From Meghimatium bilineatum (Eukaryota > Mollusca > Gastropoda > Stylommatophora > Philomycidae), in NCBI GenBank assembly GCA_034231615.1, contig CM067309.1:33764810-33828809 (forward strand): a DNA stretch of 64,000 bases, in the 5' to 3' direction. The notes under the pieces are model-generated. The model ran no database searches. It saw nothing but the letters and a program-made list of their open reading frames with translations, and was not told the origin of the DNA. The position numbers were made by a program, and so were the translations under genes. Position 1 is the stretch's first letter, and each line of letters opens with the position of its first letter. This document shows positions 9,777-63,628 of this stretch, in pieces.

Positions 9777-9992
9777 GTTGGTTATATCAATCGTCTGAAT
9801 GTTTGTTAAGTCTGTACTTCTCATGTTAGCTCAGGTAGAAGTGATCTAACTATCAGCAAGGATATGTTAGGGCAGTAGCTCAGGTAGCAGTGATCTAACT
9901 ATCAGCAAGGATATGTTAGTGCAGTAGCTCAGGTAGCAGTGATCTAACTATCAGCAAGGATATGTTAGTGCAGTAGCTCAGGTGAAAGTGAT

Positions 9993-10017
9993 CTAACTAT
10001 CAGCAAGGATATGTTAG
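9993..10017 (+). other. Stem-loop present in each 49-bp unit (example copy)
   Basis: The arm CTAACTATC (9993-10001) pairs with GATA + GTTAG (10008-10011 and 10013-10017). This gives nine base pairs around the six-base loop AGCAAG, with T10012 bulged. The same arrangement recurs in nearly every unit. In the 47-bp variant (GGATGTTAG) eight pairs remain, with a bulged T in the left arm instead. Confidence 0.8.
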
Positions 10018-10462
10018 TGCAGTAGCTCAGGTAGCAGTGATCTAACTATCAGCAAGGATATGTTAGTGCAGTAGCTCAGGTGAAAGTGATCTAACTATCA
10101 GCAAGGATATGTTAGTGCAGTAGCTCAGGTAGCAGTGATCTAACTATCAGCAAGGATATGTTAGTGCAGTAGCTCAGGTGAAAGTGATCTAACTATCAGC
10201 AAGGATATGTTAGGGCAGTAGCTCAGGTGAAAGTGATCTAACTATCAGCAAGGATATGTTAGTGCAGTAGCTCAGGTGAAAGTGATCTAACTATCAGCAA
10301 GGATATGTTAGTGCAGTAGCTCAGGTGAAAGTGATCTAACTATCAGCAAGGATATGTTAGGGCAGTAGCTCAGGTGAAAGTGATCTAACTATCAGCAAGG
10401 ATATGTTAGGGCAGTAGCTAATGTAGCAGTGATCTAACTATCAGCAAGGATATGTTAGGGCA

Positions 10463-10656
10463 GTAGCTCAGATGAAAGTGATCTAACTATCAGCAAGGAT
10501 ATTTTAGGGCAGTAGCTCAGATGAAAGTGATCTAACTATCAGCAACGATATGTTAGGGCAGTAGCTCATGTAGCAGTGATCTAACTATCAGCAAGGATGT
10601 TAGGGCAGTAGTTCATGTAGCAGTGATCTAACTATCAGCAAGGATATGTTAGTGCA
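10463..10656 (+). repeat. Four-unit marker cassette of the satellite (first of about 29 related copies)
   Basis: Four consecutive variant units: CAGATGAAAG with GATATTTTAG; CAGATGAAAG with CAACGATATG; CTCATGTAGCAG with the 47-bp GGATGTTAG form; then GTAGTTCATGTAGCAG. The CAACG marker recurs about 29 times, mostly in this order. Many cassette spacings equal 49n-2 (341, 537, 684, 733, 782 bp), as expected when each period contains one 47-bp unit. It is the basis of the higher-order structure. Confidence 0.85.
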
Positions 10657-16600: not shown

Positions 16601-16949
16601 AGCAAGGATATGTTAGTGCAGTAGCTCAGGTAGCAGTGATCTAACTATCAGCAAGGATATGTTAGTGCAGTAGCTCAGGTGAAAGTGATCTAACTATCAG
16701 CAAGGATATGTTAGGGCAGTAGCTCAGGTGAAAGTGATCTAACTATCAGCAAGGATATGTTAGTGCAGTAGCTCAGGTGAAAGTGATCTAACTATCAGCA
16801 AGGATATGTTAGTGCAGTAGCTCAGGTGAAAGTGATCTAACTATCAGCAAGGATATGTTAGGGCAGTAGCTCAGGTGAAAGTGATCTAACTATCAGCAAG
16901 GATATGTTAGGGCAGTAGCTAATGTAGCAGTGATCTAACTATCAGCAAG

Positions 16950-21400: not shown

Positions 21401-21529
21401 TATGTTAGGGCAGTAGCTAATGTAGCAGTGATCTAACTATCAGCAAGGATATGTTAGGGCAGTAGCTCAGATGAAAGTGATCTAACTATCAGCAAGGATA
21501 TTTTAGGGCAGTAGCTCAGATGAAAGTGA

Positions 21530-39899: not shown

Positions 39900-42150
39900 C
39901 AGGTGAAAGTGATCTAACTATCAGCAAGGATATTTTAGGGCAGTAGCTCAGATGAAAGTGATCTAACTATCAGCAACGATATGTTAGGGCAGTAGCTCAT
40001 GTAGCAGTGATCTAACTATCAGCAAGGATGTTAGGGCAGTAGTTCATGTAGCAGTGATCTAACTATCAGCAAGGATATGTTAGTGCAGTAGCTCAGGTGA
40101 AAGTGATCTAACTATCAGCAAGGATATGTTAGTGCAGTAGCTCAGGTGAAAGTGATCTAACTATCAGCAAGGATATGTTAGTGCAGTAGCTCAGGTGAAA
40201 GTGATCTAACTATCAGCAAGGATATGTTAGTGCAGTAGCTCAGGTGAAAGTGATCTAACTATCAGCAAGGATATGTTAGTGCAGTAGCTCAGGTAGCAGT
40301 GATCTAACTATCAGCAAGGATATGTTAGTGCAGTAGCTCAGGTGAAAGTGATCTAACTATCAGCAAGGATATGTTAGTGCAGTAGCTCAGGTGAAAGTGA
40401 TCTAACTATCATCAAGGATATGTTAGGGCAGTAGCTAATGTAGCAGTGATCTAACTATCAGCAAGGATATGTTAGGGCAGTAGCTCAGGTAGCAGTGATC
40501 TAACTATCAGCAAGGATATGTTAGTGCAGTAGCTCAGGTGAAAGTGATCTAACTATCAGCAAGGATATGTTAGGGCAGTAGCTCAGGTGAAAGTGATCTA
40601 ACTATCAGCAAGGATATGTTAGTGCAGTAGCTCAGGTGAAAGTGATCTAACTATCAGCAAGGATATGTTAGGGCAGTAGCTCATGTGAAAGTGATCTAAC
40701 TATCAGCAAGGATATGTTAGGGCAGTAGCTCAGATGAAAGTGATCTAACTATCAGCAAGGATATGTTAGGGCAGTAGCTCAGATGAAAGTGATCTAACTA
40801 TCAGCAAGGATATTTTAGGGCAGTAGCTCAGATGAAAGTGATCTAACTATCAGCAACGATATGTTAGGGCAGTAGCTCATGTAGCAGTGATCTAACTATC
40901 AGCAAGGATGTTAGGGCAGTAGTTCATGTAGCAGTGATCTAACTATCAGCAAGGATATGTTAGGGCAGTAGCTAATGTAGCAGTGATCTAACTATCAGCA
41001 AGGATATGTTAGTGCAGTAGCTCAGGTGAAAGTGATCTAACTATCAGCAAGGATATGTTAGGGCAGTAGCTCAGGTGAAAGTGATCTAACTATCAGCAAG
41101 GATATGTTAGGGCAGTAGCTCAGGTGAAAGTGATCTAACTATCAGCAAGGATATGTTAGTGCAGTAGCTCAGGTGAAAGTGATCTAACTATCAGCAAGGA
41201 TATGTTAGGGCAGTAGCTCATGTGAAAGTGATCTAACTATCAGCAAGGATATGTTAGGGCAGTAGCTCAGATGAAAGTGATCTAACTATCAGCAAGGATA
41301 TTTTAGGGCAGTAGCTCAGATGAAAGTGATCTAACTATCAGCAACGATATGTTAGGGCAGTAGCTCATGTAGCAGTGATCTAACTATCAGCAAGGATGTT
41401 AGGGCAGTAGTTCATGTAGCAGTGATCTAACTATCAGCAAGGATATGTTAGGGCAGTAGCTAATGTAGCAGTGATCTAACTATCAGCAAGGATATATTAG
41501 GGCAGTAGCTCAGGTGAAAGTGATCTAACTATCAGCAAGGATATGTTAGTGCAGTAGCTCAGGTGAAAGTGATCTAACTATCAGCAAGGATATGTTAGGG
41601 CAGTAGCTCAGGTGAAAGTGATCTAACTATCAGCAAGGATATATTAGGGCAGTAGCTCAGGTGAAAGTGATCTAACTATCAGCAAGGATATGTTAGGGCA
41701 GTAGCTCAGGTGAAAGTGATCTAACTATCAGCAAGGATATGTTAGTGCAGTAGCTCAGGTGAAAGTGATCTAACTATCAGCAAGGATATGTTAGGGCAGT
41801 AGCTCAGGTGAAAGTGATCTAACTATCAGCAAGGATATGTTAGTGCAGTAGCTCAGGTGAAAGTGATCTAACTATCAGCAAGGATATGTTAGGGCAGTAG
41901 CTCATGTGAAAGTGATCTAACTATCAGCAAGGATATGTTAGGGCAGTAGCTCAGATGAAAGTGATCTAACTATCAGCAAGGATATTTTAGGGCAGTAGCT
42001 CAGATGAAAGTGATCTAACTATCAGCAACGATATGTTAGGGCAGTAGCTCATGTAGCAGTGATCTAACTATCAGCAAGGATGTTAGGGCAGTAGTTCATG
42101 TAGCAGTGATCTAACTATCAGCAAGGATATGTTAGGGCAGTAGCTAATGT
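39900..42150 (+). repeat. Duplicated segment within the satellite (partner about 52774-55171, offset about 12,900-13,021)
   Basis: GATATTTTAG markers at 39932, 40812, 41300 and 41984 match 52806, 53784, 54321 and 55005. The rare TCATCAAGG variant at about 40411 matches about 53383 (offset 12,972, same as the second marker pair). The offset grows from 12,874 to 13,021 by multiples of 49, recording unit gains between the copies. Confidence 0.78.
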
Positions 42151-42989
42151 AGCAGTGATCTAACTATCACCAAGGATATATTAGGGCAGTAGCTCAGGTG
42201 AAAGTGATCTAACTATCAGCAAGGATATGTTAGTGCAGTAGCTCAGGTGAAAGTGATCTAACTATCAGCAAGGATATGTTAGGGCAGTAGCTCAGGTGAA
42301 AGTGATCTAACTATCAGCAAGGATATATTAGGGCAGTAGCTCAGGTGAAAGTGATCTAACTATCAGCAAGGATATGTTAGTGCAGTAGCTCAGGTGAAAG
42401 TGATCTAACTATCAGCAAGGATATGTTAGGGCAGTAGCTCAGGTGAAAGTGATCTAACTATCAGCAAGGATATGTTAGGGCAGTAGCTCAAGTGAAAGTG
42501 ATCTAACTATCAGCAAGGATATGTTAGTGCAGTAGCTCAGGTGAAAGTGATCTAACTATCAGCAAGGATATGTTAGGGCAGTAGCTCAGGTGAAAGTGAT
42601 CTAACTATCAGCAAGGATATGTTAGTGCAGTAGCTCAGGTGAAAGTGATCTAACTATCAGCAAGGATATGTTAGTGCAGTAGCTCAGATGAAAGTGATCT
42701 AACTATCAGCAAGGATATGTTAGTGCAGTAGCTCAGGTGAAAGTGATCTAACTATCAGCAAGGATATGTTAGGGTAGTAGCTCAGGTGAAAGTGATCTAA
42801 CTATCAGCAAGGATATGTTAGGGCAGTAGCTAATGTAGCAGTGATCTAACTATCAGCAAGGATATGTTAGGGCAGTAGCTCATGTAGCAGTGATCTAACT
42901 ATCAGCAAGGATATGTTAGGGTAGTAGCTCAGGTGAAAGTGATCTAACTATCAGCAAGGATATGTTAGGGCAGTAGCTAATGTAGCAGT

Positions 42990-44745
42990 GATCTAACTAT
43001 CAGCAAGGATATGTTAGTGCAGTAGCTCAGGTGAAAGTGATCTAACTATCAGCAAGGATATGTTAGGGCAGTAGCTAATGTAGCAGTGATCTAACTATCA
43101 GCAAGGATATGTTAGGGCAGTAGCTCAGGTGAAAGTGATCTAACTATCAGCAAGGATATGTTAGGGCAGTAGCTAATGTAGCAGTGATCTAACTATCAGC
43201 AAGGATGTTAGGGTAGTAGCTCAGGTGAAAGTGATCTAACTATCAGCAAGGATATGTTAGTGCAGTAGCTCAGGTGAAAGTGATCTAACTATCAGCAAGG
43301 ATATGTTAGTGCAGTAGCTCAGATGAAAGTGATCTAACTATCAGCAAGGATATGTTAGTGCAGTAGCTCAGGTGAAAGTGATCTAACTATCAGCAAGGAT
43401 ATGTTAGGGCAGTAGCTCATGTAGCAGTGATCTTACTATCAGCAAGGATGTTAGGGTAGTAGCTCAGGTGAAAGTGATCTAACTATCAGCAAGGATATGT
43501 TAGGGCAGTAGCTAATGTAGCAGTGATCTAACTATCAGCAAGGATATGTTAGGGCAGTAGCTCATGTAGCAGTGATCTTACTATCAGCAAGGATGTTAGG
43601 GTAGTAGCTCAGGTGAAAGTGATCTAACTATCAGCAAGGATATGTTAGGGCAGTAGCTAATGTAGCAGTGATCTAACTATCAGCAAGGATATGTTAGGGC
43701 AGTAGCTCATGTAGCAGTGATCTAACTATCAGCAAGGATGTTAGGGTAGTAGCTCAGGTGAAAGTGATTTAACTATCAGCAAGGATATGTTAGGGCAGTA
43801 GCTCATGTAACAGTGATCTAACTATCAGCAAGGATATGTTAGGGCAGTAGCTCAGGTGAAAGTGATCTATCAGCAAGGATGGTAGCTCAGGTAGCAGTGA
43901 TCTAACTATCAGCAATGATATGTTAGGGCAGTAGCTCAGGTGAAAGTGATCTAACTATCAGCAAGGATATGTTAGGGCAGTAGCTCATGTAGCAGTGATC
44001 TAACTATCAGCAAGGATGTTAGGGCAGTAGTTCATGTAGCAGTGATCTAACTATCAGCAAGGATGTTAGGGTAGTAGCTCAGGTGAAAGTGATCTAACTA
44101 TCAGCAAGGATATGTTAGTGCAGTAGCTCAGGTGAAAGTGATCTAACTATCAGCAAGGATATGTTAGGGCAGTAGCTCAGGTGAAAGTGATCTAACTATC
44201 AGCAAGGATATGTTAGTGCAGTAGCTCAGGTAGCAGTGATCTAACTATCAGCAAGGATATGTTAGTGCAGTAGCTCAGGTGAAAGTGATCTAACTATCAG
44301 CAAGGATATGTTAGTGCAGTAGCTCAGGTAGCAGTGATCTAACTATCAGCAAGGATATGTTAGTGCAGTAGCTCAGGTGAAAGTGATCTAACTATCAGCA
44401 AGGATATGTTAGGGCAGTAGCTCAGGTGAAAGTGATCTAACTATCAGCAAGGATATGTTAGGGCAGTAGCTAATGTAGCAGTGATCTAACTATCAGCAAG
44501 GATATGTTAGGGCAGTAGCTCATGTAGCAGTGATCTAACTATCAGCAAGGATGTTAGGGTAGTAGCTCAGGTGAAAGTGATTTAACTATCAGCAAGGATA
44601 TGTTAGTGCAGTAGCTCAGGTGAAAGTGATCTAACTATCAGCAAGGATATGTTAGGGCAGTAGCTCATGTAGCAGTGATCTAACTATCAGCAAGGATGTT
44701 AGGGCAGTAGTTCATGTAGCAGTGATCTAACTATCAGCAAGGATG
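42990..44745 (+). repeat. Duplicated segment within the satellite (partner 45408-47163, offset 2,418)
   Basis: The 35-bp unit at 43873 and 46291, the unique CAATGATATG variant at 43913 and 46331, and GGATGTTAGGGTAG at 43203 and 45621 all keep a 2,418-bp offset. CAATGATATG also occurs once more at 57371, 11,040 bp further, with its neighbouring 35-bp unit at 57331, marking a third partial copy. Confidence 0.82.
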
Positions 44746-47700
44746 TTAGGGCAGTAGCTCATGTAGCAGTGATCTAACTATCAGCAAGGATATGTTAGTG
44801 CAGTAGCTCAGGTGAAAGTGATCTAACTATCAGCAAGGATATGTTAGTGCAGTAGCTCAGGTGAAAGTGATCTAACTATCAGCAAGGATATGTTAGTGCA
44901 GTAGCTCAGGTGAAAGTGATCTAACTATCAGCAAGGATATGTTAGTGCAGTAGCTCAGGTGAAAGTGATCTAACTATCAGCAAGGATATGTTAGGGCAGT
45001 AGCTCAGGTGAAAGTGATCTAACTATCAGCAAGGATATGTTAGGGCAGTAGCTAATGTAGCAGTGATCTAACTATCAGCAAGGATATGTTAGGGCAGTAG
45101 CTCAGGTGAAAGTGATCTAACTATCAGCAAGGATATGTTAGGGCAGTAGCTCAGGTGAAAGTGATCTAACTATCAGCAAGGATATGTTAGTGCAGTAGCT
45201 CAGGTGAAAGTGATCTAACTATCAGCAAGGATATGTTAGGGCAGTAGCTCAGGTGAAAGTGATCTAACTATCAGCAAGGATATGTTAGTGCAGTAGCTCA
45301 GGTGAAAGTGATCTAACTATCAGCAAGGATATGTTAGGGCAGTAGCTCAGGTGAAAGTGATCTAACTATCAGCAAGGATATGTTAGGGCAGTAGCTCATG
45401 TAGCAGTGATCTAACTATCAGCAAGGATATGTTAGTGCAGTAGCTCAGGTGAAAGTGATCTAACTATCAGCAAGGATATGTTAGGGCAGTAGCTAATGTA
45501 GCAGTGATCTAACTATCAGCAAGGATATGTTAGGGCAGTAGCTCAGGTGAAAGTGATCTAACTATCAGCAAGGATATGTTAGGGCAGTAGCTAATGTAGC
45601 AGTGATCTAACTATCAGCAAGGATGTTAGGGTAGTAGCTCAGGTGAAAGTGATCTAACTATCAGCAAGGATATGTTAGTGCAGTAGCTCAGGTGAAAGTG
45701 ATCTAACTATCAGCAAGGATATGTTAGTGCAGTAGCTCAGATGAAAGTGATCTAACTATCAGCAAGGATATGTTAGTGCAGTAGCTCAGGTGAAAGTGAT
45801 CTAACTATCAGCAAGGATATGTTAGGGCAGTAGCTCATGTAGCAGTGATCTTACTATCAGCAAGGATGTTAGGGTAGTAGCTCAGGTGAAAGTGATCTAA
45901 CTATCAGCAAGGATATGTTAGGGCAGTAGCTAATGTAGCAGTGATCTAACTATCAGCAAGGATATGTTAGGGCAGTAGCTCATGTAGCAGTGATCTTACT
46001 ATCAGCAAGGATGTTAGGGTAGTAGCTCAGGTGAAAGTGATCTAACTATCAGCAAGGATATGTTAGGGCAGTAGCTAATGTAGCAGTGATCTAACTATCA
46101 GCAAGGATATGTTAGGGCAGTAGCTCATGTAGCAGTGATCTAACTATCAGCAAGGATGTTAGGGTAGTAGCTCAGGTGAAAGTGATTTAACTATCAGCAA
46201 GGATATGTTAGGGCAGTAGCTCATGTAACAGTGATCTAACTATCAGCAAGGATATGTTAGGGCAGTAGCTCAGGTGAAAGTGATCTATCAGCAAGGATGG
46301 TAGCTCAGGTAGCAGTGATCTAACTATCAGCAATGATATGTTAGGGCAGTAGCTCAGGTGAAAGTGATCTAACTATCAGCAAGGATATGTTAGGGCAGTA
46401 GCTCATGTAGCAGTGATCTAACTATCAGCAAGGATGTTAGGGCAGTAGTTCATGTAGCAGTGATCTAACTATCAGCAAGGATGTTAGGGTAGTAGCTCAG
46501 GTGAAAGTGATCTAACTATCAGCAAGGATATGTTAGTGCAGTAGCTCAGGTGAAAGTGATCTAACTATCAGCAAGGATATGTTAGGGCAGTAGCTCAGGT
46601 GAAAGTGATCTAACTATCAGCAAGGATATGTTAGTGCAGTAGCTCAGGTAGCAGTGATCTAACTATCAGCAAGGATATGTTAGTGCAGTAGCTCAGGTGA
46701 AAGTGATCTAACTATCAGCAAGGATATGTTAGTGCAGTAGCTCAGGTAGCAGTGATCTAACTATCAGCAAGGATATGTTAGTGCAGTAGCTCAGGTGAAA
46801 GTGATCTAACTATCAGCAAGGATATGTTAGGGCAGTAGCTCAGGTGAAAGTGATCTAACTATCAGCAAGGATATGTTAGGGCAGTAGCTAATGTAGCAGT
46901 GATCTAACTATCAGCAAGGATATGTTAGGGCAGTAGCTCATGTAGCAGTGATCTAACTATCAGCAAGGATGTTAGGGTAGTAGCTCAGGTGAAAGTGATT
47001 TAACTATCAGCAAGGATATGTTAGTGCAGTAGCTCAGGTGAAAGTGATCTAACTATCAGCAAGGATATGTTAGGGCAGTAGCTCATGTAGCAGTGATCTA
47101 ACTATCAGCAAGGATGTTAGGGCAGTAGTTCATGTAGCAGTGATCTAACTATCAGCAAGGATATGTTAGTGCAGTAGCTCAGGTGAAAGTGATCTAACTA
47201 TCAGCAAGGATATGTTAGTGCAGTAGCTCAGGTGAAAGTGATCTAACTATCAGCAAGGATATGTTAGTGCAGTAGCTCAGGTGAAAGTGATCTAACTATC
47301 AGCAAGGATATGTTAGTGCAGTAGCTCAGGTGAAAGTGATCTAACTATCAGCAAGGATATGTTAGGGCAGTAGCTCAGGTGAAAGTGATCTAACTATCAG
47401 CAAGGATATGTTAGGGCAGTAGCTAATGTAGCAGTGATCTAACTATCAGCAAGGATATGTTAGGGCAGTAGCTCAGGTGAAAGTGATCTAACTATCAGCA
47501 AGGATATGTTAGGGCAGTAGCTCAGGTGAAAGTGATCTAACTATCAGCAAGGATATGTTAGTGCAGTAGCTCAGGTGAAAGTGATCTAACTATCAGCAAG
47601 GATATGTTAGGGCAGTAGCTCAGGTGAAAGTGATCTAACTATCAGCAAGGATATGTTAGTGCAGTAGCTCAGGTGAAAGTGATCTAACTATCAGCAAGGA

Positions 47701-47779
47701 TATGTTAGGGCAGTAGCTCAGGTGAAAGTGATCTAACTATCAGCAAGGATATGTTAGGGCAGTAGCTCATGTAACAGTG

Positions 47780-50720
47780 ATCTAACTATCAGCAAGGATA
47801 TGTTAGGGCAGTAGCTCAGGTGAAAGTGATCTATCAGCAAGGATGGTAGCTCAGGTAGCAGTGATCTAACTATCAGCAAGGATATGTTAGGGCAGTAGCT
47901 CAGGTGAAAGTGATCTAACTATCAGCAAGGATATGTTAGGGCAGTAGCTCATGTAGCAGTGATCTAACTATCAGCAAGGATGTTAGGGCAGTAGTTCATG
48001 TAGCAGTGATCTAACTATCAGCAAGGATGTTAGGGCAGTAGCTCATGTAGCAGTGATCTAACTATCAGCAAGGATATGTTAGTGCAGTAGCTCAGGTGAA
48101 AGTGATCTAACTATCAGCAAGGATATGTTAGTGCAGTAGCTCAGGTGAAAGTGATCTAACTATCAGCAAGGATATGTTAGTGCAGTAGCTCAGGTGAAAG
48201 TGATCTAACTATCAGCAAGGATATGTTAGTGCAGTAGCTCAGGTGAAAGTGATCTAACTATCAGCAAGGATATGTTAGGGCAGTAGCTCAGGTGAAAGTG
48301 ATCTAACTATCAGCAAGGATATGTTAGGGCAGTAGCTAATGTAGCAGTGATCTAACTATCAGCAAGGATATGTTAGGGCAGTAGCTCAGGTGAAAGTGAT
48401 CTAACTATCAGCAAGGATATGTTAGGGCAGTAGCTCAGGTGAAAGTGATCTAACTATCAGCAAGGATATGTTAGTGCAGTAGCTCAGGTGAAAGTGATCT
48501 AACTATCAGCAAGGATATGTTAGGGCAGTAGCTCAGGTGAAAGTGATCTAACTATCAGCAAGGATATGTTAGTGCAGTAGCTCAGGTGAAAGTGATCTAA
48601 CTATCAGCAAGGATATGTTAGGGCAGTAGCTCAGGTGAAAGTGATCTAACTATCAGCAAGGATATGTTAGGGCAGTAGCTCATGTAGCAGTGATCTAACT
48701 ATCAGCAAGGATGTTAGGGTAGTAGCTCAGGTGAAAGTGATCTAACTATCAGCAAGGATATGTTAGTGCAGTAGCTCAGGTGAAAGTGATCTAACTATCA
48801 GCAAGGATATGTTAGTGCAGTAGCTCAGATGAAAGTGATCTAACTATCAGCAAGGATATGTTAGTGCAGTAGCTCAGGTGAAAGTGATCTAACTATCAGC
48901 AAGGATATGTTAGGGCAGTAGCTCATGTAGCAGTGATCTTACTATCAGCAAGGATGTTAGGGTAGTAGCTCAGGTGAAAGTGATCTAACTATCAGCAAGG
49001 ATATGTTAGGGCAGTAGCTAATGTAGCAGTGATCTAACTATCAGCAAGGATATGTTAGGGCAGTAGCTCATGTAGCAGTGATCTAACTATCAGCAAGGAT
49101 GTTAGGGTAGTAGCTCAGGTGAAAGTGATCTAACTATCAGCAAGGATATGTTAGGGCAGTAGCTCAGGTGAAAGTGATCTAACTATCAGCAAGGATATGT
49201 TAGGGCAGTAGCTCATGTAGCAGTGATCTTACTATCAGCAAGGATGTTAGGGTAGTAGCTCAGGTGAAAGTGATCTAACTATCAGCAAGGATATGTTAGG
49301 GCAGTAGCTAATGTAGCAGTGATCTAACTATCAGCAAGGATATGTTAGGGCAGTAGCTCATGTAGCAGTGATCTAACTATCAGCAAGGATGTTAGGGTAG
49401 TAGCTCAGGTGAAAGTGATCTAACTATCAGCAAGGATATGTTAGGGCAGTAGCTCAGGTAGCAGTGATCTAACTATCAGCAAGGATGTTAGGGCAGTAGT
49501 TCATGTAGCAGTGATCTAACTATCAGCAAGGATATGTTAGGGCAGTAGCTCATGTAGCAGTGATCTTACTATCAGCAAGGATGTTAGGGTAGTAGCTCAG
49601 GTGAAAGTGATCTAACTATCAGCAAGGATATGTTAGGGCAGTAGCTAATGTAGCAGTGATCTAACTATCAGCAAGGATATGTTAGGGCAGTAGCTCATGT
49701 AGCAGTGATCTAACTATCAGCAAGGATGTTAGGGTAGTAGCTCAGGTGAAAGTGATTTAACTATCAGCAAGGATATGTTAGTGCAGTAGCTCAGGTGAAA
49801 GTGATCTAACTATCAGCAAGGATATGTTAGTGCAGTAGCTCAGGTGAAAGTGATCTAACTATCAGCAAGGATATGTTAGGGCAGTAGCTCAGGTGAAAGT
49901 GATCTAACTATCAGCAAGGATATGTTAGGGCAGTAGCTCATGTAACAGTGATCTAACTATCAGCAAGGATATGTTAGGGCAGTAGCTCAGGTGAAAGTGA
50001 TCTATCAGCAAGGATGGTAGCTCAGGTAGCAGTGATCTAACTATCAGCAAGGATATGTTAGGGCAGTAGCTCAGGTGAAAGTGATCTAACTATCAGCAAG
50101 GATATGTTAGGGCAGTAGCTCAGGTAGCAGTGATCTAACTATCAGCAAGGATGTTAGGGCAGTAGTTCATGTAGCAGTGATCTAACTATCAGCAAGGATA
50201 TGTTAGGGCAGTAGCTAATGTAGCAGTGATCTAACTATCAGCAAGGATATGTTAGGGCAGTAGCTCAGGTGAAAGTGATCTAATTATCAGCAAGGATATG
50301 TTAGGGCAGTAGTTAATGTAGCAGTGATCTAACTATCAGCAAGGATGTTAGGGTAGTAGCTCAGGTGAAAGTGATCTAACTATCAGCAAGGATATGTTAG
50401 TGCAGTAGCTCAGGTGAAAGTGATCTAACTATCAGCAAGGATATGTTAGGGCAGTAGCTCATGTAGCAGTGATCTTACTATCAGCAAGGATGTTAGGGTA
50501 GTAGCTCAGGTGAAAGTGATCTAACTATCAGCAAGGATATGTTAGGGCAGTAGCTAATGTAGCAGTGATCTAACTATCAGCAAGGATATGTTAGGGCAGT
50601 AGCTCATGTAGCAGTGATCTAACTATCAGCAAGGATGTTAGGGTAGTAGCTCAGGTGAAAGTGATTTAACTATCAGCAAGGATATGTTAGTGCAGTAGCT
50701 CAGGTGAAAGTGATCTAACT
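47780..50720 (+). repeat. Duplicated segment within the satellite (partner about 58234-61174, offset 10,454)
   Basis: The 35-bp units at 47837 and 50008 match those at 58291 and 60462. The rare TAATTATCAG and neighbouring GTAGTTAATG variants at 50281 recur at 60735. All keep the offset of 10,454 bp. The next 35-bp unit pair (50819/61371) is 98 bp further apart, i.e. two units were gained or lost. Confidence 0.8.
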
Positions 50721-53700
50721 ATCAGCAAGGATATGTTAGTGCAGTAGCTCATGTAACAGTGATCTAACTATCAGCAAGGATATGTTAGGGCAGTAGCTCA
50801 GGTGAAAGTGATCTATCAGCAAGGATGGTAGCTCAGGTAGCAGTGATCTAACTATCAGCAAGGATATGTTAGGGCAGTAGCTCAGGTGAAAGTGATCTAA
50901 CTATCAGCAAGGATATGTTAGGGCAGTAGCTCATGTAGCAGTGATCTAACTATCAGCAAGGATGTTAGGGCAGTAGTTCATGTAGCAGTGATCTAACTAT
51001 CAGCAAGGATGTTAGGGTAGTAGCTCAGGTGAAAGTGATCTAACTATCAGCAAGGATATGTTAGTGCAGTAGCTCAGGTGAAAGTGATCTAACTATCAGC
51101 AAGGATATGTTAGGGCAGTAGCTCAGGTGAAAGTGATCTAACTATCAGCAAGGATATGTTAGTGCAGTAGCTCAGGTAGCAGTGATCTAACTATCAGCAA
51201 GGATATGTTAGTGCAGTAGCTCAGGTGAAAGTGATCTAACTATCAGCAAGGATATGTTAGTGCAGTAGCTCAGGTAGCAGTGATCTAACTATCAGCAAGG
51301 ATATGTTAGTGCAGTAGCTCAGGTGAAAGTGATCTAACTATCAGCAAGGATATGTTAGGGCAGTAGCTCAGGTGAAAGTGATCTAACTATCAGCAAGGAT
51401 ATGTTAGGGCAGTAGCTCAGGTGAAAGTGATCTAACTATCAGCAAGGATATGTTAGTGCAGTAGCTCAGGTGAAAGTGATCTAACTATCAGCAAGGATAT
51501 GTTAGGGCAGTAGCTCAGGTGAAAGTGATCTAACTATCAGCAAGGATATGTTAGGGCAGTAGCTCAGGTGAAAGTGATCTAACTATCAGCAAGGATATGT
51601 TAGGGCAGTAGCTCAGGTGAAAGTGATCTAACTATCAGCAAGGATATGTTAGGGCAGTAGCTCATGTAGCAGTGATCTAACTATCAGCAAGGATGTTAGG
51701 GTAGTAGCTCAGGTGAAAGTGATCTAACTATCAGCAAGGATATGTTAGTGCAGTAGCTCAGGTGAAAGTGATCTAACTATCAGCAAGGATATGTTAGTGC
51801 AGTAGCTCAGATGAAAGTGATCTAACTATCAGCAAGGATATGTTAGTGCAGTAGCTCAGGTGAAAGTGATCTAACTATCAGCAAGGATATGTTAGGGCAG
51901 TAGCTCATGTAGCAGTGATCTTACTATCAGCAAGGATGTTAGGGTAGTAGCTCAGGTGAAAGTGATCTAACTATCAGCAAGGATATGTTAGGGCAGTAGC
52001 TAATGTAGCAGTGATCTAACTATCAGCAAGGATATGTTAGGGCAGTAGCTCATGTAGCAGTGATCTAACTATCAGCAAGGATGTTAGGGTAGTAGCTCAG
52101 GTGAAAGTGATCTAACTATCAGCAAGGATATGTTAGGGCAGTAGCTCAGGTAGCAGTGATCTAACTATCAGCAAGGATGTTAGGGCAGTAGTTCATGTAG
52201 CAGTGATCTAACTATCAGCAAGGATATGTTAGGGCAGTAGCTCATGTAGCAGTGATCTTACTATCAGCAAGGATGTTAGGGTAGTAGCTCAGGTGAAAGT
52301 GATCTAACTATCAGCAAGGATATGTTAGGGCAGTAGCTAATGTAGCAGTGATCTAACTATCAGCAAGGATATGTTAGGGCAGTAGCTCATGTAGCAGTGA
52401 TCTAACTATCAGCAAGGATGTTAGGGTAGTAGCTCAGGTGAAAGTGATCTAACTATCAGCAAGGATATGTTAGGGCAGTAGCTCAGGTAGCAGTGATCTA
52501 ACTATCAGCAAGGATGTTAGGGCAGTAGCTAATGTAGCAGTGATCTAACTATCAGCAAGGATGTTAGGGTAGTAGCTCAGGTGAAAGTGATCTAACTATC
52601 AGCAAGGATATGTTAGTGCAGTAGCTCAGGTGAAAGTGATCTAACTATCAGCAAGGATATGTTAGTGCAGTAGCTCAGATGAAAGTGATCTAACTATCAG
52701 CAAGGATATGTTAGTGCAGTAGCTCAGGTGAAAGTGATCTAACTATCAGCAAGGATATGTTAGGGCAGTAGCTCAGGTGAAAGTGATCTAACTATCAGCA
52801 AGGATATTTTAGGGCAGTAGCTCAGATGAAAGTGATCTAACTATCAGCAACGATATGTTAGGGCAGTAGCTCATGTAGCAGTGATCTAACTATCAGCAAG
52901 GATGTTAGGGCAGTAGTTCATGTAGCAGTGATCTAACTATCAGCAAGGATATGTTAGTGCAGTAGCTCAGGTGAAAGTGATCTAACTATCAGCAAGGATA
53001 TGTTAGTGCAGTAGCTCAGGTGAAAGTGATCTAACTATCAGCAAGGATATGTTAGTGCAGTAGCTCAGGTGAAAGTGATCTAACTATCAGCAAGGATATG
53101 TTAGTGCAGTAGCTCAGGTGAAAGTGATCTAACTATCAGCAAGGATATGTTAGTGCAGTAGCTCAGGTAGCAGTGATCTAACTATCAGCAAGGATATGTT
53201 AGTGCAGTAGCTCAGGTGAAAGTGATCTAACTATCAGCAAGGATATGTTAGGGCAGTAGCTCAGGTGAAAGTGATCTAACTATCAGCAAGGATATGTTAG
53301 TGCAGTAGCTCAGGTGAAAGTGATCTAACTATCAGCAAGGATATGTTAGTGCAGTAGCTCAGGTGAAAGTGATCTAACTATCATCAAGGATATGTTAGGG
53401 CAGTAGCTAATGTAGCAGTGATCTAACTATCAGCAAGGATATGTTAGGGCAGTAGCTCAGGTAGCAGTGATCTAACTATCAGCAAGGATATGTTAGTGCA
53501 GTAGCTCAGGTGAAAGTGATCTAACTATCAGCAAGGATATGTTAGGGCAGTAGCTCAGGTGAAAGTGATCTAACTATCAGCAAGGATATGTTAGTGCAGT
53601 AGCTCAGGTGAAAGTGATCTAACTATCAGCAAGGATATGTTAGGGCAGTAGCTCATGTGAAAGTGATCTAACTATCAGCAAGGATATGTTAGGGCAGTAG

Positions 53701-56700
53701 CTCAGATGAAAGTGATCTAACTATCAGCAAGGATATGTTAGGGCAGTAGCTCAGATGAAAGTGATCTAACTATCAGCAAGGATATTTTAGGGCAGTAGCT
53801 CAGATGAAAGTGATCTAACTATCAGCAACGATATGTTAGGGCAGTAGCTCATGTAGCAGTGATCTAACTATCAGCAAGGATGTTAGGGCAGTAGTTCATG
53901 TAGCAGTGATCTAACTATCAGCAAGGATATGTTAGGGCAGTAGCTAATGTAGCAGTGATCTAACTATCAGCAAGGATATGTTAGGGCAGTAGCTAATGTA
54001 GCAGTGATCTAACTATCAGCAAGGATATGTTAGTGCAGTAGCTCAGGTGAAAGTGATCTAACTATCAGCAAGGATATGTTAGGGCAGTAGCTCAGGTGAA
54101 AGTGATCTAACTATCAGCAAGGATATGTTAGGGCAGTAGCTCAGGTGAAAGTGATCTAACTATCAGCAAGGATATGTTAGTGCAGTAGCTCAGGTGAAAG
54201 TGATCTAACTATCAGCAAGGATATGTTAGGGCAGTAGCTCATGTGAAAGTGATCTAACTATCAGCAAGGATATGTTAGGGCAGTAGCTCAGATGAAAGTG
54301 ATCTAACTATCAGCAAGGATATTTTAGGGCACTAGCTCAGATGAAAGTGATCTAACTATCAGCAACGATATGTTAGGGCAGTAGCTCATGTAGCAGTGAT
54401 CTAACTATCAGCAAGGATGTTAGGGCAGTAGTTCATGTAGCAGTGATCTAACTATCAGCAAGGATATGTTAGGGCAGTAGCTAATGTAGCAGTGATCTAA
54501 CTATCAGCAAGGATATATTAGGGCAGTAGCTCAGGTGAAAGTGATCTAACTATCAGCAAGGATATGTTAGTGCAGTAGCTCAGGTGAAAGTGATCTAACT
54601 ATCAGCAAGGATATGTTAGGGCAGTAGCTCAGGTGAAAGTGATCTAACTATCAGCAAGGATATATTAGGGCAGTAGCTCAGGTGAAAGTGATCTAACTAT
54701 CAGCAAGGATATGTTAGGGCAGTAGCTCAGGTGAAAGTGATCTAACTATCAGCAAGGATATGTTAGTGCAGTAGCTCAGGTGAAAGTGATCTAACTATCA
54801 GCAAGGATATGTTAGGGCAGTAGCTCAGGTGAAAGTGATCTAACTATCAGCAAGGATATGTTAGTGCAGTAGCTCAGGTGAAAGTGATCTAACTATCAGC
54901 AAGGATATGTTAGGGCAGTAGCTCATGTGAAAGTGATCTAACTATCAGCAAGGATATGTTAGGGCAGTAGCTCAGATGAAAGTGATCTAACTATCAGCAA
55001 GGATATTTTAGGGCAGTAGCTCAGATGAAAGTGATCTAACTATCAGCAACGATATGTTAGGGCAGTAGCTCATGTAGCAGTGATCTAACTATCAGCAAGG
55101 ATGTTAGGGCAGTAGTTCATGTAGCAGTGATCTAACTATCAGCAAGGATATGTTAGGGCAGTAGCTAATGTAGCAGTGATCTAACTATCAGCAAGGATAT
55201 ATTAGGGCAGTAGCTCAGGTGAAAGTGATCTAACTATCAGCAAGGATATGTTAGTGCAGTAGCTCAGGTGAAAGTGATCTAACTATCAGCAAGGATATGT
55301 TAGGGCAGTAGCTCAGGTGAAAGTGATCTAACTATCAGCAAGGATATATTAGGGCAGTAGCTCAGGTGAAAGTGATCTAACTATCAGCAAGGATATGTTA
55401 GTGCAGTAGCTCAGGTGAAAGTGATCTAACTATCAGCAAGGATATGTTAGGGCAGTAGCTCAGGTGAAAGTGATCTAACTATCAGCAAGGATATGTTAGT
55501 GCAGTAGCTCAGGTGAAAGTGATCTAACTATCAGCAAGGATATGTTAGTGCAGTAGCTCAGATGAAAGTGATCTAACTATCAGCAAGGATATGTTAGGGC
55601 AGTAGCTCAGATGAAAGTGATCTAACTATCAGCAAGGATATGTTAGTGCAGTAGCTCAGGTGAAAGTGATCTAACTATCAGCAAGGATATGTTAGTGCAG
55701 TAGCTCAGATGAAAGTGATCTAACTATCAGCAAGGATATGTTAGTGCAGTAGCTCAGATGAAAGTGATCTAACTATCAGCAAGGATATGTTAGGGCAGTA
55801 GCTCAGATGAAAGTGATCTAACTATCAGCAAGGATATGTTAGTGCAGTAGCTCAGGTGAAAGTGATCTAACTATCAGCAAGGATATGTTAGTGCAGTAGC
55901 TCAGATGAAAGTGATCTAACTATCAGCAAGGATATGTTAGTGCAGTAGCTCAGGTGAAAGTGATCTAACTATCAGCAAGGATATGTTAGGGTAGTAGCTC
56001 AGGTGAAAGTGATCTAACTATCAGCAAGGATATGTTAGGGCAGTAGCTAATGTAGCAGTGATCTAACTATCAGCAAGGATATGTTAGTGCAGTAGCTCAG
56101 GTGAAAGTGATCTAACTATCAGCAAGGATATGTTAGGGCAGTAGCTAATGTAGCAGTGATCTAACTATCAGCAAGGATATGTTAGGGCAGTAGCTCAGGT
56201 GAAAGTGATCTAACTATCAGCAAGGATATGTTAGGGCAGTAGCTAATGTAGCAGTGATCTAACTATCAGCAAGGATGTTAGGGTAGTAGCTCAGGTGAAA
56301 GTGATCTAACTATCAGCAAGGATATGTTAGTGCAGTAGCTCAGGTGAAAGTGATCTAACTATCAGCAAGGATATGTTAGTGCAGTAGCTCAGATGAAAGT
56401 GATCTAACTATCAGCAAGGATATGTTAGTGCAGTAGCTCAGGTGAAAGTGATCTAACTATCAGCAAGGATATGTTAGGGCAGTAGCTCATGTAGCAGTGA
56501 TCTAACTATCAGCAAGGATGTTAGGGTAGTAGCTCAGGTGAAAGTGATCTAACTATCAGCAAGGATATGTTAGGGCAGTAGCTAATGTAGCAGTGATCTA
56601 ACTATCAGCAAGGATATGTTAGGGCAGTAGCTAATGTAGCAGTGATCTTACTATCAGCAAGGATGTTAGGGTAGTAGCTCAGGTGAAAGTGATCTAACTA

Positions 56701-59700
56701 TCAGCAAGGATATGTTAGGGCAGTAGCTAATGTAGCAGTGATCTAACTATCAGCAAGGATATGTTAGGGCAGTAGCTCATGTAGCAGTGATCTAACTATC
56801 AGCAAGGATGTTAGGGTAGTAGCTCAGGTGAAAGTGATTTAACTATCAGCAAGGATATGTTAGGGCAGTAGCTCATGTAACAGTGATCTAACTATCAGCA
56901 AGGATATGTTAGGGCAGTAGCTCAGGTGAAAGTGATCTAACTATCAGCAAGGATATGTTAGGGCAGTAGCTAATGTAGCAGTGATCTAACTATCAGCAAG
57001 GATATGTTAGGGCAGTAGCTCAGGTGAAAGTGATCTAACTATCAGCAAGGATATGTTAGGGCAGTAGCTCATGTAGCAGTGATCTAACTATCAGCAAGGA
57101 TGTTAGGGCAGTAGTTCATGTAGCAGTGATCTAACTATCAGCAAGGATATGTTAGGGCAGTAGCTCATGTAGCAGTGATCTAACTATCAGCAAGGATGTT
57201 AGGGTAGTAGCTCAGGTGAAAGTGATTTAACTATCAGCAAGGATATGTTAGGGCAGTAGCTCATGTAACAGTGATCTAACTATCAGCAAGGATATGTTAG
57301 GGCAGTAGCTCAGGTGAAAGTGATCTATCAGCAAGGATGGTAGCTCAGGTAGCAGTGATCTAACTATCAGCAATGATATGTTAGGGCAGTAGCTCAGGTG
57401 AAAGTGATCTAACTATCAGCAAGGATATGTTAGGGCAGTAGCTCATGTAGCAGTGATCTAACTATCAGCAAGGATGTTAGGGCAGTAGTTCATGTAGCAG
57501 TGATCTAACTATCAGCAAGGATGTTAGGGTAGTAGCTCAGGTGAAAGTGATCTAACTATCAGCAAGGATATGTTAGTGCAGTAGCTCAGGTGAAAGTGAT
57601 CTAACTATCAGCAAGGATATGTTAGGGCAGTAGCTCAGGTGAAAGTGATCTAACTATCAGCAAGGATATGTTAGTGCAGTAGCTCAGGTAGCAGTGATCT
57701 AACTATCAGCAAGGATATGTTAGTGCAGTAGCTCAGGTGAAAGTGATCTAACTATCAGCAAGGATATGTTAGTGCAGTAGCTCAGGTAGCAGTGATCTAA
57801 CTATCAGCAAGGATATGTTAGTGCAGTAGCTCAGGTGAAAGTGATCTAACTATCAGCAAGGATATGTTAGGGCAGTAGCTCAGGTGAAAGTGATCTAACT
57901 ATCAGCAAGGATATGTTAGGGCAGTAGCTAATGTAGCAGTGATCTAACTATCAGCAAGGATATGTTAGGGCAGTAGCTCATGTAGCAGTGATCTAACTAT
58001 CAGCAAGGATGTTAGGGTAGTAGCTCAGGTGAAAGTGATTTAACTATCAGCAAGGATATGTTAGTGCAGTAGCTCAGGTGAAAGTGATCTAACTATCAGC
58101 AAGGATATGTTAGTGCAGTAGCTCAGGTGAAAGTGATCTAACTATCAGCAAGGATATGTTAGGGCAGTAGCTCAGGTGAAAGTGATCTAACTATCAGCAA
58201 GGATATGTTAGGGCAGTAGCTCATGTAACAGTGATCTAACTATCAGCAAGGATATGTTAGGGCAGTAGCTCAGGTGAAAGTGATCTATCAGCAAGGATGG
58301 TAGCTCAGGTAGCAGTGATCTAACTATCAGCAAGGATATGTTAGGGCAGTAGCTCAGGTGAAAGTGATCTAACTATCAGCAAGGATATGTTAGGGCAGTA
58401 GCTCATGTAGCAGTGATCTAACTATCAGCAAGGATGTTAGGGCAGTAGTTCATGTAGCAGTGATCTAACTATCAGCAAGGATGTTAGGGTAGTAGCTCAG
58501 GTGAAAGTGATCTAACTATCAGCAAGGATATGTTAGTGCAGTAGCTCAGGTGAAAGTGATCTAACTATCAGCAAGGATATGTTAGTGCAGTAGCTCAGGT
58601 GAAAGTGATCTAACTATCAGCAAGGATATGTTAGTGCAGTAGCTCAGGTGAAAGTGATCTAACTATCAGCAAGGATATGTTAGTGCAGTAGCTCAGGTGA
58701 AAGTGATCTAACTATCAGCAAGGATATGTTAGGGCAGTAGCTCAGGTGAAAGTGATCTAACTATCAGCAAGGATATGTTAGGGCAGTAGCTAATGTAGCA
58801 GTGATCTAACTATCAGCAAGGATATGTTAGGGCAGTAGCTCAGGTGAAAGTGATCTAACTATCAGCAAGGATATGTTAGGGCAGTAGCTCAGGTGAAAGT
58901 GATCTAACTATCAGCAAGGATATGTTAGTGCAGTAGCTCAGGTGAAAGTGATCTAACTATCAGCAAGGATATGTTAGGGCAGTAGCTCAGGTGAAAGTGA
59001 TCTAACTATCAGCAAGGATATGTTAGTGCAGTAGCTCAGGTGAAAGTGATCTAACTATCAGCAAGGATATGTTAGGGCAGTAGCTCAGGTGAAAGTGATC
59101 TAACTATCAGCAAGGATATGTTAGGGCAGTAGCTCATGTAGCAGTGATCTAACTATCAGCAAGGATGTTAGGGTAGTAGCTCAGGTGAAAGTGATCTAAC
59201 TATCAGCAAGGATATGTTAGTGCAGTAGCTCAGGTGAAAGTGATCTAACTATCAGCAAGGATATGTTAGTGCAGTAGCTCAGATGAAAGTGATCTAACTA
59301 TCAGCAAGGATATGTTAGTGCAGTAGCTCAGGTGAAAGTGATCTAACTATCAGCAAGGATATGTTAGGGCAGTAGCTCATGTAGCAGTGATCTTACTATC
59401 AGCAAGGATGTTAGGGTAGTAGCTCAGGTGAAAGTGATCTAACTATCAGCAAGGATATGTTAGGGCAGTAGCTAATGTAGCAGTGATCTAACTATCAGCA
59501 AGGATATGTTAGGGCAGTAGCTCATGTAGCAGTGATCTAACTATCAGCAAGGATGTTAGGGTAGTAGCTCAGGTGAAAGTGATCTAACTATCAGCAAGGA
59601 TATGTTAGGGCAGTAGCTCAGGTGAAAGTGATCTAACTATCAGCAAGGATATGTTAGGGCAGTAGCTCATGTAGCAGTGATCTTACTATCAGCAAGGATG

Positions 59701-61905
59701 TTAGGGTAGTAGCTCAGGTGAAAGTGATCTAACTATCAGCAAGGATATGTTAGGGCAGTAGCTAATGTAGCAGTGATCTAACTATCAGCAAGGATATGTT
59801 AGGGCAGTAGCTCATGTAGCAGTGATCTAACTATCAGCAAGGATGTTAGGGTAGTAGCTCAGGTGAAAGTGATCTAACTATCAGCAAGGATATGTTAGGG
59901 CAGTAGCTCAGGTAGCAGTGATCTAACTATCAGCAAGGATGTTAGGGCAGTAGTTCATGTAGCAGTGATCTAACTATCAGCAAGGATATGTTAGGGCAGT
60001 AGCTCATGTAGCAGTGATCTTACTATCAGCAAGGATGTTAGGGTAGTAGCTCAGGTGAAAGTGATCTAACTATCAGCAAGGATATGTTAGGGCAGTAGCT
60101 AATGTAGCAGTGATCTAACTATCAGCAAGGATATGTTAGGGCAGTAGCTCATGTAGCAGTGATCTAACTATCAGCAAGGATGTTAGGGTAGTAGCTCAGG
60201 TGAAAGTGATTTAACTATCAGCAAGGATATGTTAGTGCAGTAGCTCAGGTGAAAGTGATCTAACTATCAGCAAGGATATGTTAGTGCAGTAGCTCAGGTG
60301 AAAGTGATCTAACTATCAGCAAGGATATGTTAGGGCAGTAGCTCAGGTGAAAGTGATCTAACTATCAGCAAGGATATGTTAGGGCAGTAGCTCATGTAAC
60401 AGTGATCTAACTATCAGCAAGGATATGTTAGGGCAGTAGCTCAGGTGAAAGTGATCTATCAGCAAGGATGGTAGCTCAGGTAGCAGTGATCTAACTATCA
60501 GCAAGGATATGTTAGGGCAGTAGCTCAGGTGAAAGTGATCTAACTATCAGCAAGGATATGTTAGGGCAGTAGCTCAGGTAGCAGTGATCTAACTATCAGC
60601 AAGGATGTTAGGGCAGTAGTTCATGTAGCAGTGATCTAACTATCAGCAAGGATATGTTAGGGCAGTAGCTAATGTAGCAGTGATCTAACTATCAGCAAGG
60701 ATATGTTAGGGCAGTAGCTCAGGTGAAAGTGATCTAATTATCAGCAAGGATATGTTAGGGCAGTAGTTAATGTAGCAGTGATCTAACTATCAGCAAGGAT
60801 GTTAGGGTAGTAGCTCAGGTGAAAGTGATCTAACTATCAGCAAGGATATGTTAGTGCAGTAGCTCAGGTGAAAGTGATCTAACTATCAGCAAGGATATGT
60901 TAGGGCAGTAGCTCATGTAGCAGTGATCTTACTATCAGCAAGGATGTTAGGGTAGTAGCTCAGGTGAAAGTGATCTAACTATCAGCAAGGATATGTTAGG
61001 GCAGTAGCTAATGTAGCAGTGATCTAACTATCAGCAAGGATATGTTAGGGCAGTAGCTCATGTAGCAGTGATCTAACTATCAGCAAGGATGTTAGGGTAG
61101 TAGCTCAGGTGAAAGTGATTTAACTATCAGCAAGGATATGTTAGTGCAGTAGCTCAGGTGAAAGTGATCTAACTATCAGCAAGGATATGTTAGTGCAGTA
61201 GCTCAGGTGAAAGTGATCTAACTATCAGCAAGGATATGTTAGGGCAGTAGCTCAGGTGAAAGTGATCTAACTATCAGCAAGGATATGTTAGGGCAGTAGC
61301 TCATGTAACAGTGATCTAACTATCAGCAAGGATATGTTAGGGCAGTAGCTCAGGTGAAAGTGATCTATCAGCAAGGATGGTAGCTCAGGTAGCAGTGATC
61401 TAACTATCAGCAAGGATATGTTAGGGCAGTAGCTCAGGTGAAAGTGATCTAACTATCAGCAAGGATATGTTAGGGCAGTAGCTCATGTAGCAGTGATCTA
61501 ACTATCAGCAAGGATGTTAGGGCAGTAGTTCATGTAGCAGTGATCTAACTATCAGCAAGGATGTTAGGGCAGTAGCTCATGTAGCAGTGATCTTACTATC
61601 AGCAAGGATGTTAGGGTAGTAGCTCAGGTGAAAGTGATCTAACTATCAGCAAGGATATGTTAGGGCAGTAGCTCAGGTGAAAGTGATCTAACTATCAGCA
61701 AGGATATGTTAGGGCAGTAGCTCATGTAACAGTGATCTAACTATCAGCAAGGATGTTAGGGTAGTAGCTCAGGTGAAAGTGATCTAACTATCAGCAAGGA
61801 TATGTTAGGGCAGTAGCTCAGGTGAAAGTGATCTATCAGCAAGGATGTTAGCGCAGTAGCTCAGGTAGCAGTGATCTAACTATCAGCAAGGATATGTTAG
61901 GGCAG

Positions 61906-62215
61906 GAGACACAGTACATCACATTTGCATGTTTTCATGCTAAACATAGGACTGAAATTGTGGGGAAACAGTAGCAAATTTTAACAGTTTTATTGTCTAG
62001 CAGTGAAATTTAGCAGTTTCAATGTCTTGTTGTGAATTTTAGCTTTTTCTTAGTTTAGTAGTAGTGTATATATATATATATATATTTTTTCTTGTGTGCA
62101 CATCATTATCCACTAGTTTTAGTTATAGTTTGTCATTTCTGATTGAAGGGATTATATAAACCTGTGTTTTATGTAAATACAATTGTTGTTACCTTTCATG
62201 CAGTTACCTTGTATT
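61906..62215. other. Single-copy AT-rich spacer after the satellite
   Basis: Contains a (TA)n run at about 62067-62084 and weak GTCTAGCAGTGAAA-type matches near 61996, perhaps decayed forerunners of the 28-bp repeat. No open frame or exon-like segment was found. Confidence 0.5.
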
Positions 62216-63597
62216 ATTGTCTGTTAGTGAAATACAATGGGTGAATGCCTATCAGTGAAATGTAAATCTGTGATTGTCTATTAGTGAAATACAAATGTGT
62301 TATTATTTGTTAGTGAAATATAAATGTGTGATTATCTGTCAGTGAATTTAAAATGTGTGATTGTCTGTCAGTGAATTTAAAATGTGTTATTGTCTGTAAG
62401 TGAAATAAAAAGTGTGATTTTCTGTCAGTGAAATTAAAATGTGTGATTGTCTGTAAGTGAAATAAAATATGTGATTGTCTGTCAGTGAAATAAAATATGT
62501 GATTGTCTGTCAGTGAAATAAAATGTGTAATTGTCTGTCAGTAAAATAAAATGTATAATTGTCTGTCAGTGAAATACAAATGTGTGATTGTCTGTCAGTG
62601 AAATAAAATATGTGATTGTCTGTCAGTGAAATACAAATGTGTGATTGTCTGTCAGTGAAATAAAATATGTGATTGTCTGTCAGTGAAATAAAATATGTGA
62701 TTGTCTGTCAGTGAAATAAAATATGTGATTGTCTGTCAGTGAAATAAAATGTGTAATTGTCTGTCAGTAAAATAAAATGTATAATTGTCTGTCAGTGAAA
62801 TACAAATGTGTGATTGTCTGTCAGTGAAATAAAATATGTGATTGTCTGTCAGTGAAATACAAATGTGTGATTGTCTGTCAGTGAAATAAAATATGTGATT
62901 GTCTGTCAGTGAAATAAAATGTGTAATTGTCTGTCAGTAAAATAAAATGTATAATTGTCTGTCAGTGAAATACAAATGTGTGATTGTCTGTCAGTGAAAT
63001 AAAATATGTGATTGTCTGTCAGTGAAATACAAATGTGTGATTGTCTGTCAGTGAAATAAAATATGTGATTGTCTGTCAGTGAAATAAAATATGTGATTGT
63101 CTGTCAGTGAAATAAAATATGTGATTGTCTGTCAGTGAAATAAAATGTGTAATTGTCTGTCAGTAAAATAAAATGTATAATTGTCTGTCAGTGAAATACA
63201 AATGTGTGATTGTCTGTCAGTGAAATAAAATATGTGATTGTCTGTCAGTGAAATACAAATGTGTGATTGTCTGTCAGTGAAATAAAATATGTGATTGTCT
63301 GTCAGTGAAATACAAATGTGTGATTGTCTGACAGTGAAATAAAATATGTGATTATCTGTGAAATACAAATGTGTGATTGTCTGACAGTGAAATAAAATAT
63401 GTGATTGTCTGTGAAATACAAATGTGTGATTGTCTGACAGTGAAATAAAATATGTGATTGTCTGTGAAATACAAATGTGTGATTGTCTGACAGTGAAATA
63501 AAATATGTGATTGTCTGTGAAATACAAATGTGTGATTGTCTGACAGTGAAATAAAATATGTGATTATCTGTGAAATACAAATGTGTGATTGTCTGGT
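62216..63597. repeat. 28-29-bp minisatellite, about 48 copies
   Basis: The units are GTGATTGTCTGTCAGTGAAA + TAAAATAT (28 bp) and the same core + TACAAATGT (29 bp). The left edge (62216-62420) is degenerate. Blocks marked by ATGTGTAATTG start at 62523, 62749, 62919 and 63145: spacings 226, 170 and 226 bp, i.e. eight- and six-unit blocks. From about 63345 a shorter two-unit form (TCTGTGAAATACAAATG, then TGTCTGACAGTGAAATAAAA) takes over. Minus-strand ORFs rich in HICISQT / HIFYFT are artefacts of the repeat. Confidence 0.95.
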
Positions 63598-63628
63598 GCT
63601 GATTACTATTTGCTATTTGTAAACACAG

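Follow-up and report, generated by a model that had tools for sequence, protein, structure and literature searches.

The window analysed here is a stretch of 64,000 nucleotides from the gastropod Meghimatium bilineatum (assembly GCA_034231615.1; positions 33,764,810 to 33,828,809 of the forward strand of contig CM067309.1, hereafter C12), some 9.9 Mb from the nearer end of the 43.75-Mb contig. It contains a 49-bp tandem array, about 52 kb long, in what is probably the third intron of a plus-strand protein-coding gene, which is cut by the window and has a second copy of the same structure on another contig (C7). We consider it likely that a locus-specific repeat was amplified in place, swelling an intron originally a few kb long to 53.9 kb, and that the array is transcribed, spliced out and tolerated as a passenger. 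On this account a short 49-bp array would have formed in situ; multi-kb blocks, one of ~13 kb and several smaller, would then have been duplicated in tandem, via unequal exchange or replication-based tandem duplication; and the result would be copied into pre-mRNA and removed as one very long intron. The array would represent extreme and probably recent growth of a repeat inside a gene, and the best reading of it is a single-locus intronic minisatellite of exceptional length.

The original prediction, made from the letters of the window, held that open segments at 9647-9776 and 63629-63703 flank an interval of 53,852 bp, of which 52,080 bp (about 97%) is one homogeneous array and most of the rest a 28-bp array. 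Tandem Repeats Finder (TRF) returned 52,079 bp, or 96.7% of the interval, so that the claimed length is right within rounding, and the remainder divides into 1,380 bp of 28-bp array and 393 bp belonging to neither. The claimed homogeneity is borne out by a mean divergence of 4.3% from the consensus and of 6.0% between pairs, as calculated from those monomers that are exactly 49 bp long (898 out of 1,072).

Exon structure and the paralogue on C7

The proposal that the two open segments are consecutive exons could be compared with a second gene copy. When the translated exons, joined, were searched against the 1.61-Gb, 32-contig genome, 10 matches were obtained: four in the window, three on the minus strand of C7, and three weak ones elsewhere (E 1.65-2.92). 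In the translated C7 matches, 30/62 residues are identical for exon 3, in an alignment that runs past the exon end, and 15/27 for exon 4. The exon 3 homologue itself (C7 7443074-7442942) spans 133 bp, one codon longer than in C12, with 26/42 identical amino acids, and that of exon 4 (7439225-7439151; 14/25 identical) agrees in length and phase; the two copies share the codon positions of the exon 3 acceptor and donor and of the start and end of exon 4. Exons 1 and 2 upstream and exons 5 and 6 downstream are likewise collinear, with agreeing phases: exon 1 resembles C7 7448982-7448760 (29/74 amino acids identical, 39%), exon 2 resembles 7446410-7446337 (equal phases, 13/24), and exon 5 keeps 20/24 residues between copies, while the ends of exon 6, judged by eye, are approximate. 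A further C7 exon candidate (7437895-7437735), whose phases fit, is placed between the exon 4 and exon 5 homologues; a C12 partner would be expected in 64001-71600. Homologues in which the two peptide segments lie apart would have spoken against the predicted exon pair; on C7 the segments are adjacent, with the same phases and splice positions, which supports the view that 9647-9776 and 63629-63703 are adjacent exons of one gene.

The local signals are compatible with this arrangement. Exon 3 ends in phase 0 and 63629-63703 is open in phase 0, as had been proposed; read from its first base, 9647-9776 runs into stops, and the open frame begins at 9648. The predicted splice signals are present though weak, at 4.9 bits for the donor after exon 3 (GAG/GTTGGT) and 6.1 bits for the acceptor before exon 4 (AACACAG/A), as scored with an approximate metazoan matrix. 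Chance signals are unlikely, because the junctions recur in the second gene copy, where they read AAAGAG/GTTTGT at the donor (AAAGAG/GTTGGT in C12) and TTTTTCAG/TTA. Exon 1 was the best-scoring plus-strand exon candidate in the 200 kb scanned (including 7.6 kb of N), each of the six exons seen in C12 has an open frame, and no junction is broken from exon 1 to exon 5.

The paralogue thereby provides the C12 gene with a built-in control, namely the same exons around an intron of 3.7 kb. Between the exon 3 and exon 4 homologues C7 has 3,716 bp, versus 53,852 bp in C12, while the three other comparable intron pairs resemble each other in size, at 3,608 versus 2,349, 1,787 versus 3,262 and 2,647 versus 2,887 bp (C12 versus C7, the last with approximate ends), and the other introns measured, three in C12 and five in C7, span 1.3-3.6 kb. 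Across 212 aligned codons, with exon 6 slightly trimmed, mismatches at positions 1/2/3 number 68/56/121 (nonsynonymous divergence dN 0.36, synonymous divergence dS saturated), and in hand-chosen gap-free blocks of exons 3 and 4 they number 16/13/25 of 60. This third-position excess implies protein-level constraint on the pair since its separation, as a sum over both copies from which the present constraint on each is not separable.

The C12 gene may encode a cyclic-nucleotide-binding protein, to judge from a Pfam match below threshold, and CNBD2/CRIS-like proteins may be its nearest kin. With the downstream exons, PF00027 scores 16.1 bits in C12 (E 0.012; profile 4-52 of 89) and with the C7 exons 16.3 bits (E 0.0096; profile 7-35), both below the cut-off of 27.5. 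The full joined model (229 amino acids) returned no match, and neither gene copy is among the 49 matches listed from a genome search with this profile, an absence that might follow from division of the domain over short exons. The exon 3 and 4 segments, alone or joined, matched no Pfam family above cut-off (one match, DR2241, E 0.1), and when joined they retrieved no solved structure with an E of 10 or less. The C7 exons gave seven weak PDB matches, to five cGMP-dependent kinases, one Epac and one rhamnosidase (best E 0.022), and a shorter query gave none; later exons of the domain were looked for and not found. Exon 6 terminates in Phe-Gly directly before a possible donor. In CRIS a conserved Phe-Gly-Glu contacts cAMP, expression in mouse is restricted to sperm precursor cells, and the protein was lacking in mollusks as of December 2012, according to PMC3854790.

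Growth and locus specificity of the array

Cutting the array at one anchor yields 1,072 monomers (898 of 49 bp, 141 of 47, 16 of 45, 15 of 39 and two of 48), which fall into 50 sequence types. Exact repeats extend to 2,700 bp (48052/58506), 2,410 bp (37968/50842) and 1,850 bp (21521/23620). Monomer-level self-alignment pairs 37979-50998 with 50853-61550 at an offset of 12,874 bp at the start, and within the first of these blocks 42998-45367 is repeated at 45416-47738 (48/49 columns). As this 2.4-kb duplication nearly explains the difference in length between the two blocks, it would seem to be later than the 13-kb duplication. Further duplications have offsets of 2.1, 4.4 and 11.7 kb, and the monomer types of the left part of the array (to ~30.7 kb) differ partly from those of the right. 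A fixed higher-order repeat was rejected, as no lag dominates array-wide (best autocorrelation 0.19 versus 0.125 by composition); by part, the values are 0.35 versus 0.19 at lag 237 on the left and 0.23 versus 0.105 at lag 266 on the right, and the duplicated blocks vary in size with no fixed period. Monomer types, kb-long exact repeats and the 13-kb block pair together point to growth by blocks of tens to hundreds of monomers, and this growth was probably recent, given that kilobases remain unmutated between duplicated blocks.

By the two patterns searched, the 49-bp unit occupies a single locus. An exact 31-mer occurs 809 times genome-wide and a 30-mer with up to three mismatches 917 times, in every case on the forward strand and in the window (809 and 917, respectively); copies with indels or more than three mismatches in 30 bases are missed by such patterns, and distant relatives could escape them. 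A 29-mer of the 28-bp array, with up to two mismatches, has nine genome matches, all nine inside 62216-63595. A search for a source of the 49-bp unit, covering the examined flanks in C12 and the C7 gene copy, gave no convincing match (best E 0.088).

The sense strand of the array is rich in G over C and A over T (GC skew +0.30, AT skew +0.10), and its CpG count is 32 against 2,063 predicted from base composition, a deficit that amounts to one observation only, because one CpG-free unit was copied. The telomere-like hexamer TTAGGG appears 649 times in 9827-61905, which we regard as coincidence. As a coding sequence the array was rejected, the longest open stretch being 33 amino acids in sense and 54 in antisense, as it was as a structured RNA element, since a 295-nt stretch is no better than its shuffles (z 0.15; 112/200 shuffles at least as stable).

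Sense-strand signals in the array are compatible with its transcription and removal with the intron. None of 7,515 sense AG dinucleotides reaches the score of the true acceptor, and neither AATAAA nor ATTAAA is present in the sense array; there is therefore no obvious transcript end or hijack within it. At least as strong as the true donor are 702 of 4,701 sense GT dinucleotides, and 23 of 1,107 in antisense. We do not claim a design for splice decoys from this count, as 11% of 2,000 shuffled monomers reach the best donor score of the consensus monomer and 37% reach that of the true donor. Table 1 gives the coordinates of all features.

Table 1. Features of the C12 window, numbered from its first letter
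Feature	Position	Strand	Details
Exon 1	3952-4177	+	226 bp; one split-codon base in, phase 0 out; possible start ATG at 3956
19-bp array	4209-4854	+	intron 1, 31 bp past exon 1
Exon 2	7786-7859	+	74 bp; phase 0 in, 2 bases out
33-bp array	8585-9575	+	intron 2, upstream of exon 3 (TRF)
Exon 3 (candidate)	9647-9776	+	130 bp; one split-codon base in, phase 0 out
Intron 3 of model	9777-63628	+	53,852 bp; paralogous C7 intron 3,716 bp
49-bp tandem array	9827-61905	+	52,079 bp; ~1,073 copies, 92% matches, 1% indels (TRF); single orientation
13.0-kb block in array	37979-50998	+	aligns to 50853-61550 (10.7 kb); 212/277 columns identical monomers
139-bp dispersed repeat	62083-62221	+	1,086 candidate places, 40 scored; matches mostly query 24-162
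28/57-bp tandem array	62216-63595	+	1,380 bp (TRF)
Exon 4 (candidate)	63629-63703	+	75 bp = 25 open codons; phase 0 to 0

Alternative explanations and known systems

Several observations weigh against a tolerated, locally grown passenger, or against its singularity. Tandem arrays are common in the region, so that the 49-bp array stands at the far end of a local tendency; the stretch between exons 4 and 5 is likewise larger in C12 (9,612 bp) than in C7 (4,460 bp). The assembled copy number could be wrong, because exact repeats as long as 2.7 kb pose difficulties for assembly. The weak true splice sites, together with the donor-like sites in the array, make mis-splicing possible, and the C7 paralogue may be the sole functional copy. 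The last two points bear on an unlikely alternative, in which the C12 gene no longer works, the array having grown in a duplicate on its way to loss, and yields no full transcript. The second copy could cover the function, exon 1 is just 39% identical between copies, and 702 competing sites match or exceed a feeble donor; against this stand six open C12 exons with intact junctions from exon 1 to 5, the retention of 20/24 residues in exon 5, and the concentration of mismatches at third positions, although the latter sums both copies and cannot date a recent loss. A reading in which the two segments do not follow each other as exons of a single gene is scarcely credible: each is short, and the joined pair finds neither a solved structure nor a Pfam family above cut-off, but collinear paralogous exons with identical phases strongly disfavor their separation.

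It is very unlikely that the array is a regulatory or timing element, its long repeat-filled intron delaying or tuning expression as has been proposed for Drosophila Y-linked fertility genes, which are transcribed during spermatogenesis. The architecture is like that of kl-3 and kl-5 on a smaller scale (PMC6508621), and the gene is perhaps of the CNBD2/CRIS kind; expression of CRIS is restricted to sperm precursors in mouse, according to PMC3854790. Yet the intron is 54 kb and not megabases long, the C7 paralogue manages without an array, and the block history favors instability over conservation. Carriage to this site by a mobile element, such as a Helentron containing central repeats, is an extremely improbable origin. 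Such carriers are described in a mollusc, the Pacific oyster (PMC7492417), and a dispersed 139-bp repeat does lie nearby; it adjoins the 28-bp array, however, and not the 49-bp array, the right flank of the latter (61906-62064) matched only itself among the 50 matches listed (40 of 1,012 candidates scored), and the patterns used gave no second locus for the 49-bp unit. The left flank, at just 50 bp, is too short for flank comparison.

The word satellite, used in the original prediction, fits the length of the array; its unit, within the ~10-100 bp minisatellite range, and its single locus fit minisatellite instead. Like a classical satellite it runs for tens of kb as one TRF array, block-duplicated and homogenized, but it lies in a gene and at one place only by the patterns used, where a classical satellite would be abundant in heterochromatin or at several loci. 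On the basis of its 49-bp unit, single locus and confinement to what appears to be one intron, the array seems to belong with intronic minisatellites. A VNTR would in addition differ in length from one individual to the next; the length given here is that of a single assembly. The nearest documented case that we found is TRACT, a 30-bp intronic variable number tandem repeat (VNTR) of human CACNA1C, 3-30+ kb long and built of distinct variant units, whose expansion is attributed to perfect repeat tracts (PMC13131567). Both are kb-long, short-unit intronic arrays with variant units; the C12 array differs in its greater length (52 kb), its 49-bp unit and duplicated blocks of up to ~13 kb. In kl-3 and kl-5, on the repeat-rich Drosophila Y, megabase introns consist of simple satellites such as (AATAT)n (PMC6508621); there too, tandem repeats make up nearly the whole intron between small exons, whereas the C12 intron, at 53,852 bp, falls short of megabases and holds a single-locus 49-bp unit near ordinary genes. 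Pacific oyster Helentrons carry satellite-like arrays (PMC7492417), in a genome that is similarly rich in tandem arrays outside classical satellites. Helentrons would leave same-flank copies at many loci; for the 49-bp unit the patterns used revealed no second locus, and the matches listed no shared flank beside the array.

Among published intronic arrays, those we found to be similar in length or longer are the ones of Drosophila Y genes and a human disease-associated VNTR, and the top-ranked openly licensed PubMed Central literature contained no report of this 49-bp array or of a 50-kb single-locus intronic minisatellite. The C12/C7 pair makes questions about giant introns testable in one animal, such as whether polymerase and splicing cope with them, whether timing or output depends on intron length, and how fast arrays grow. 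A bolder view, which we hold to be very unlikely, is that the locus exemplifies a small and young case of intron gigantism driven by a satellite, on a chromosome not known to be a sex chromosome, in which an array grows by blocks in a conserved signaling gene, possibly a sperm gene, within a genome where arrays arise near the splice sites of some genes. If true, intron length and transcription time would evolve within single genes over short periods.

Neighboring repeats and other observations

Beyond the window, 70 kb upstream and 58.4 kb downstream (beyond 71600) were examined. Tandem arrays with a period of at least 10 cover 22,037 bp of these flanks, and the next largest array nearby, of a 41-bp unit, spans 3,075 bp (97372-100446 in window numbering), about 1/17 of the 49-bp array. 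Upstream exon candidates correspond to MED19 (PF10278, E 6.6e-36), a metallophosphatase (E 1.6e-8) and a DUF383 gene (E 2.9e-9), all within ~75 kb upstream of the 49-bp array. The 139-bp dispersed repeat stops where the 28-bp array begins and has no contact with the 49-bp array; because the element ends at the array start, the 28-bp array may have originated at its end. At several places this repeat has a nearby partial copy on the opposite strand.

Array edges lie within 120 bp of 17/25 splice boundaries in the two gene copies (8/11 in C12, where one boundary facing 64001-71600 was dropped, and 9/14 in C7), compared with 12-22% of points placed at random outside arrays (against 22%, binomial P 1.1e-6), an association spotted after the fact. 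No such excess was found at 26 of 30 other loci (14/52 sides, P 0.24), where exon edges were taken as match edges and four loci with long unbroken frames were left out, nor in three neighboring genes (2/14 boundaries versus 3.9% at random, P 0.10). Splice-adjacent arrays are thus a lead only.

Elsewhere in the genome, a nuclear copy of a mitochondrial COX1 fragment (C2:121989805-121990428, locus L056) reads well in the invertebrate mitochondrial code; a mitochondrial contig seems to be absent from the assembly, as no other COX1 match reaches an E of 0.001. Two loci 92 kb apart on C11 (42369861 and 42461527; L037 and L038) have identical cyclic-nucleotide-binding scores and equal array coverage, which suggests a recent duplication.

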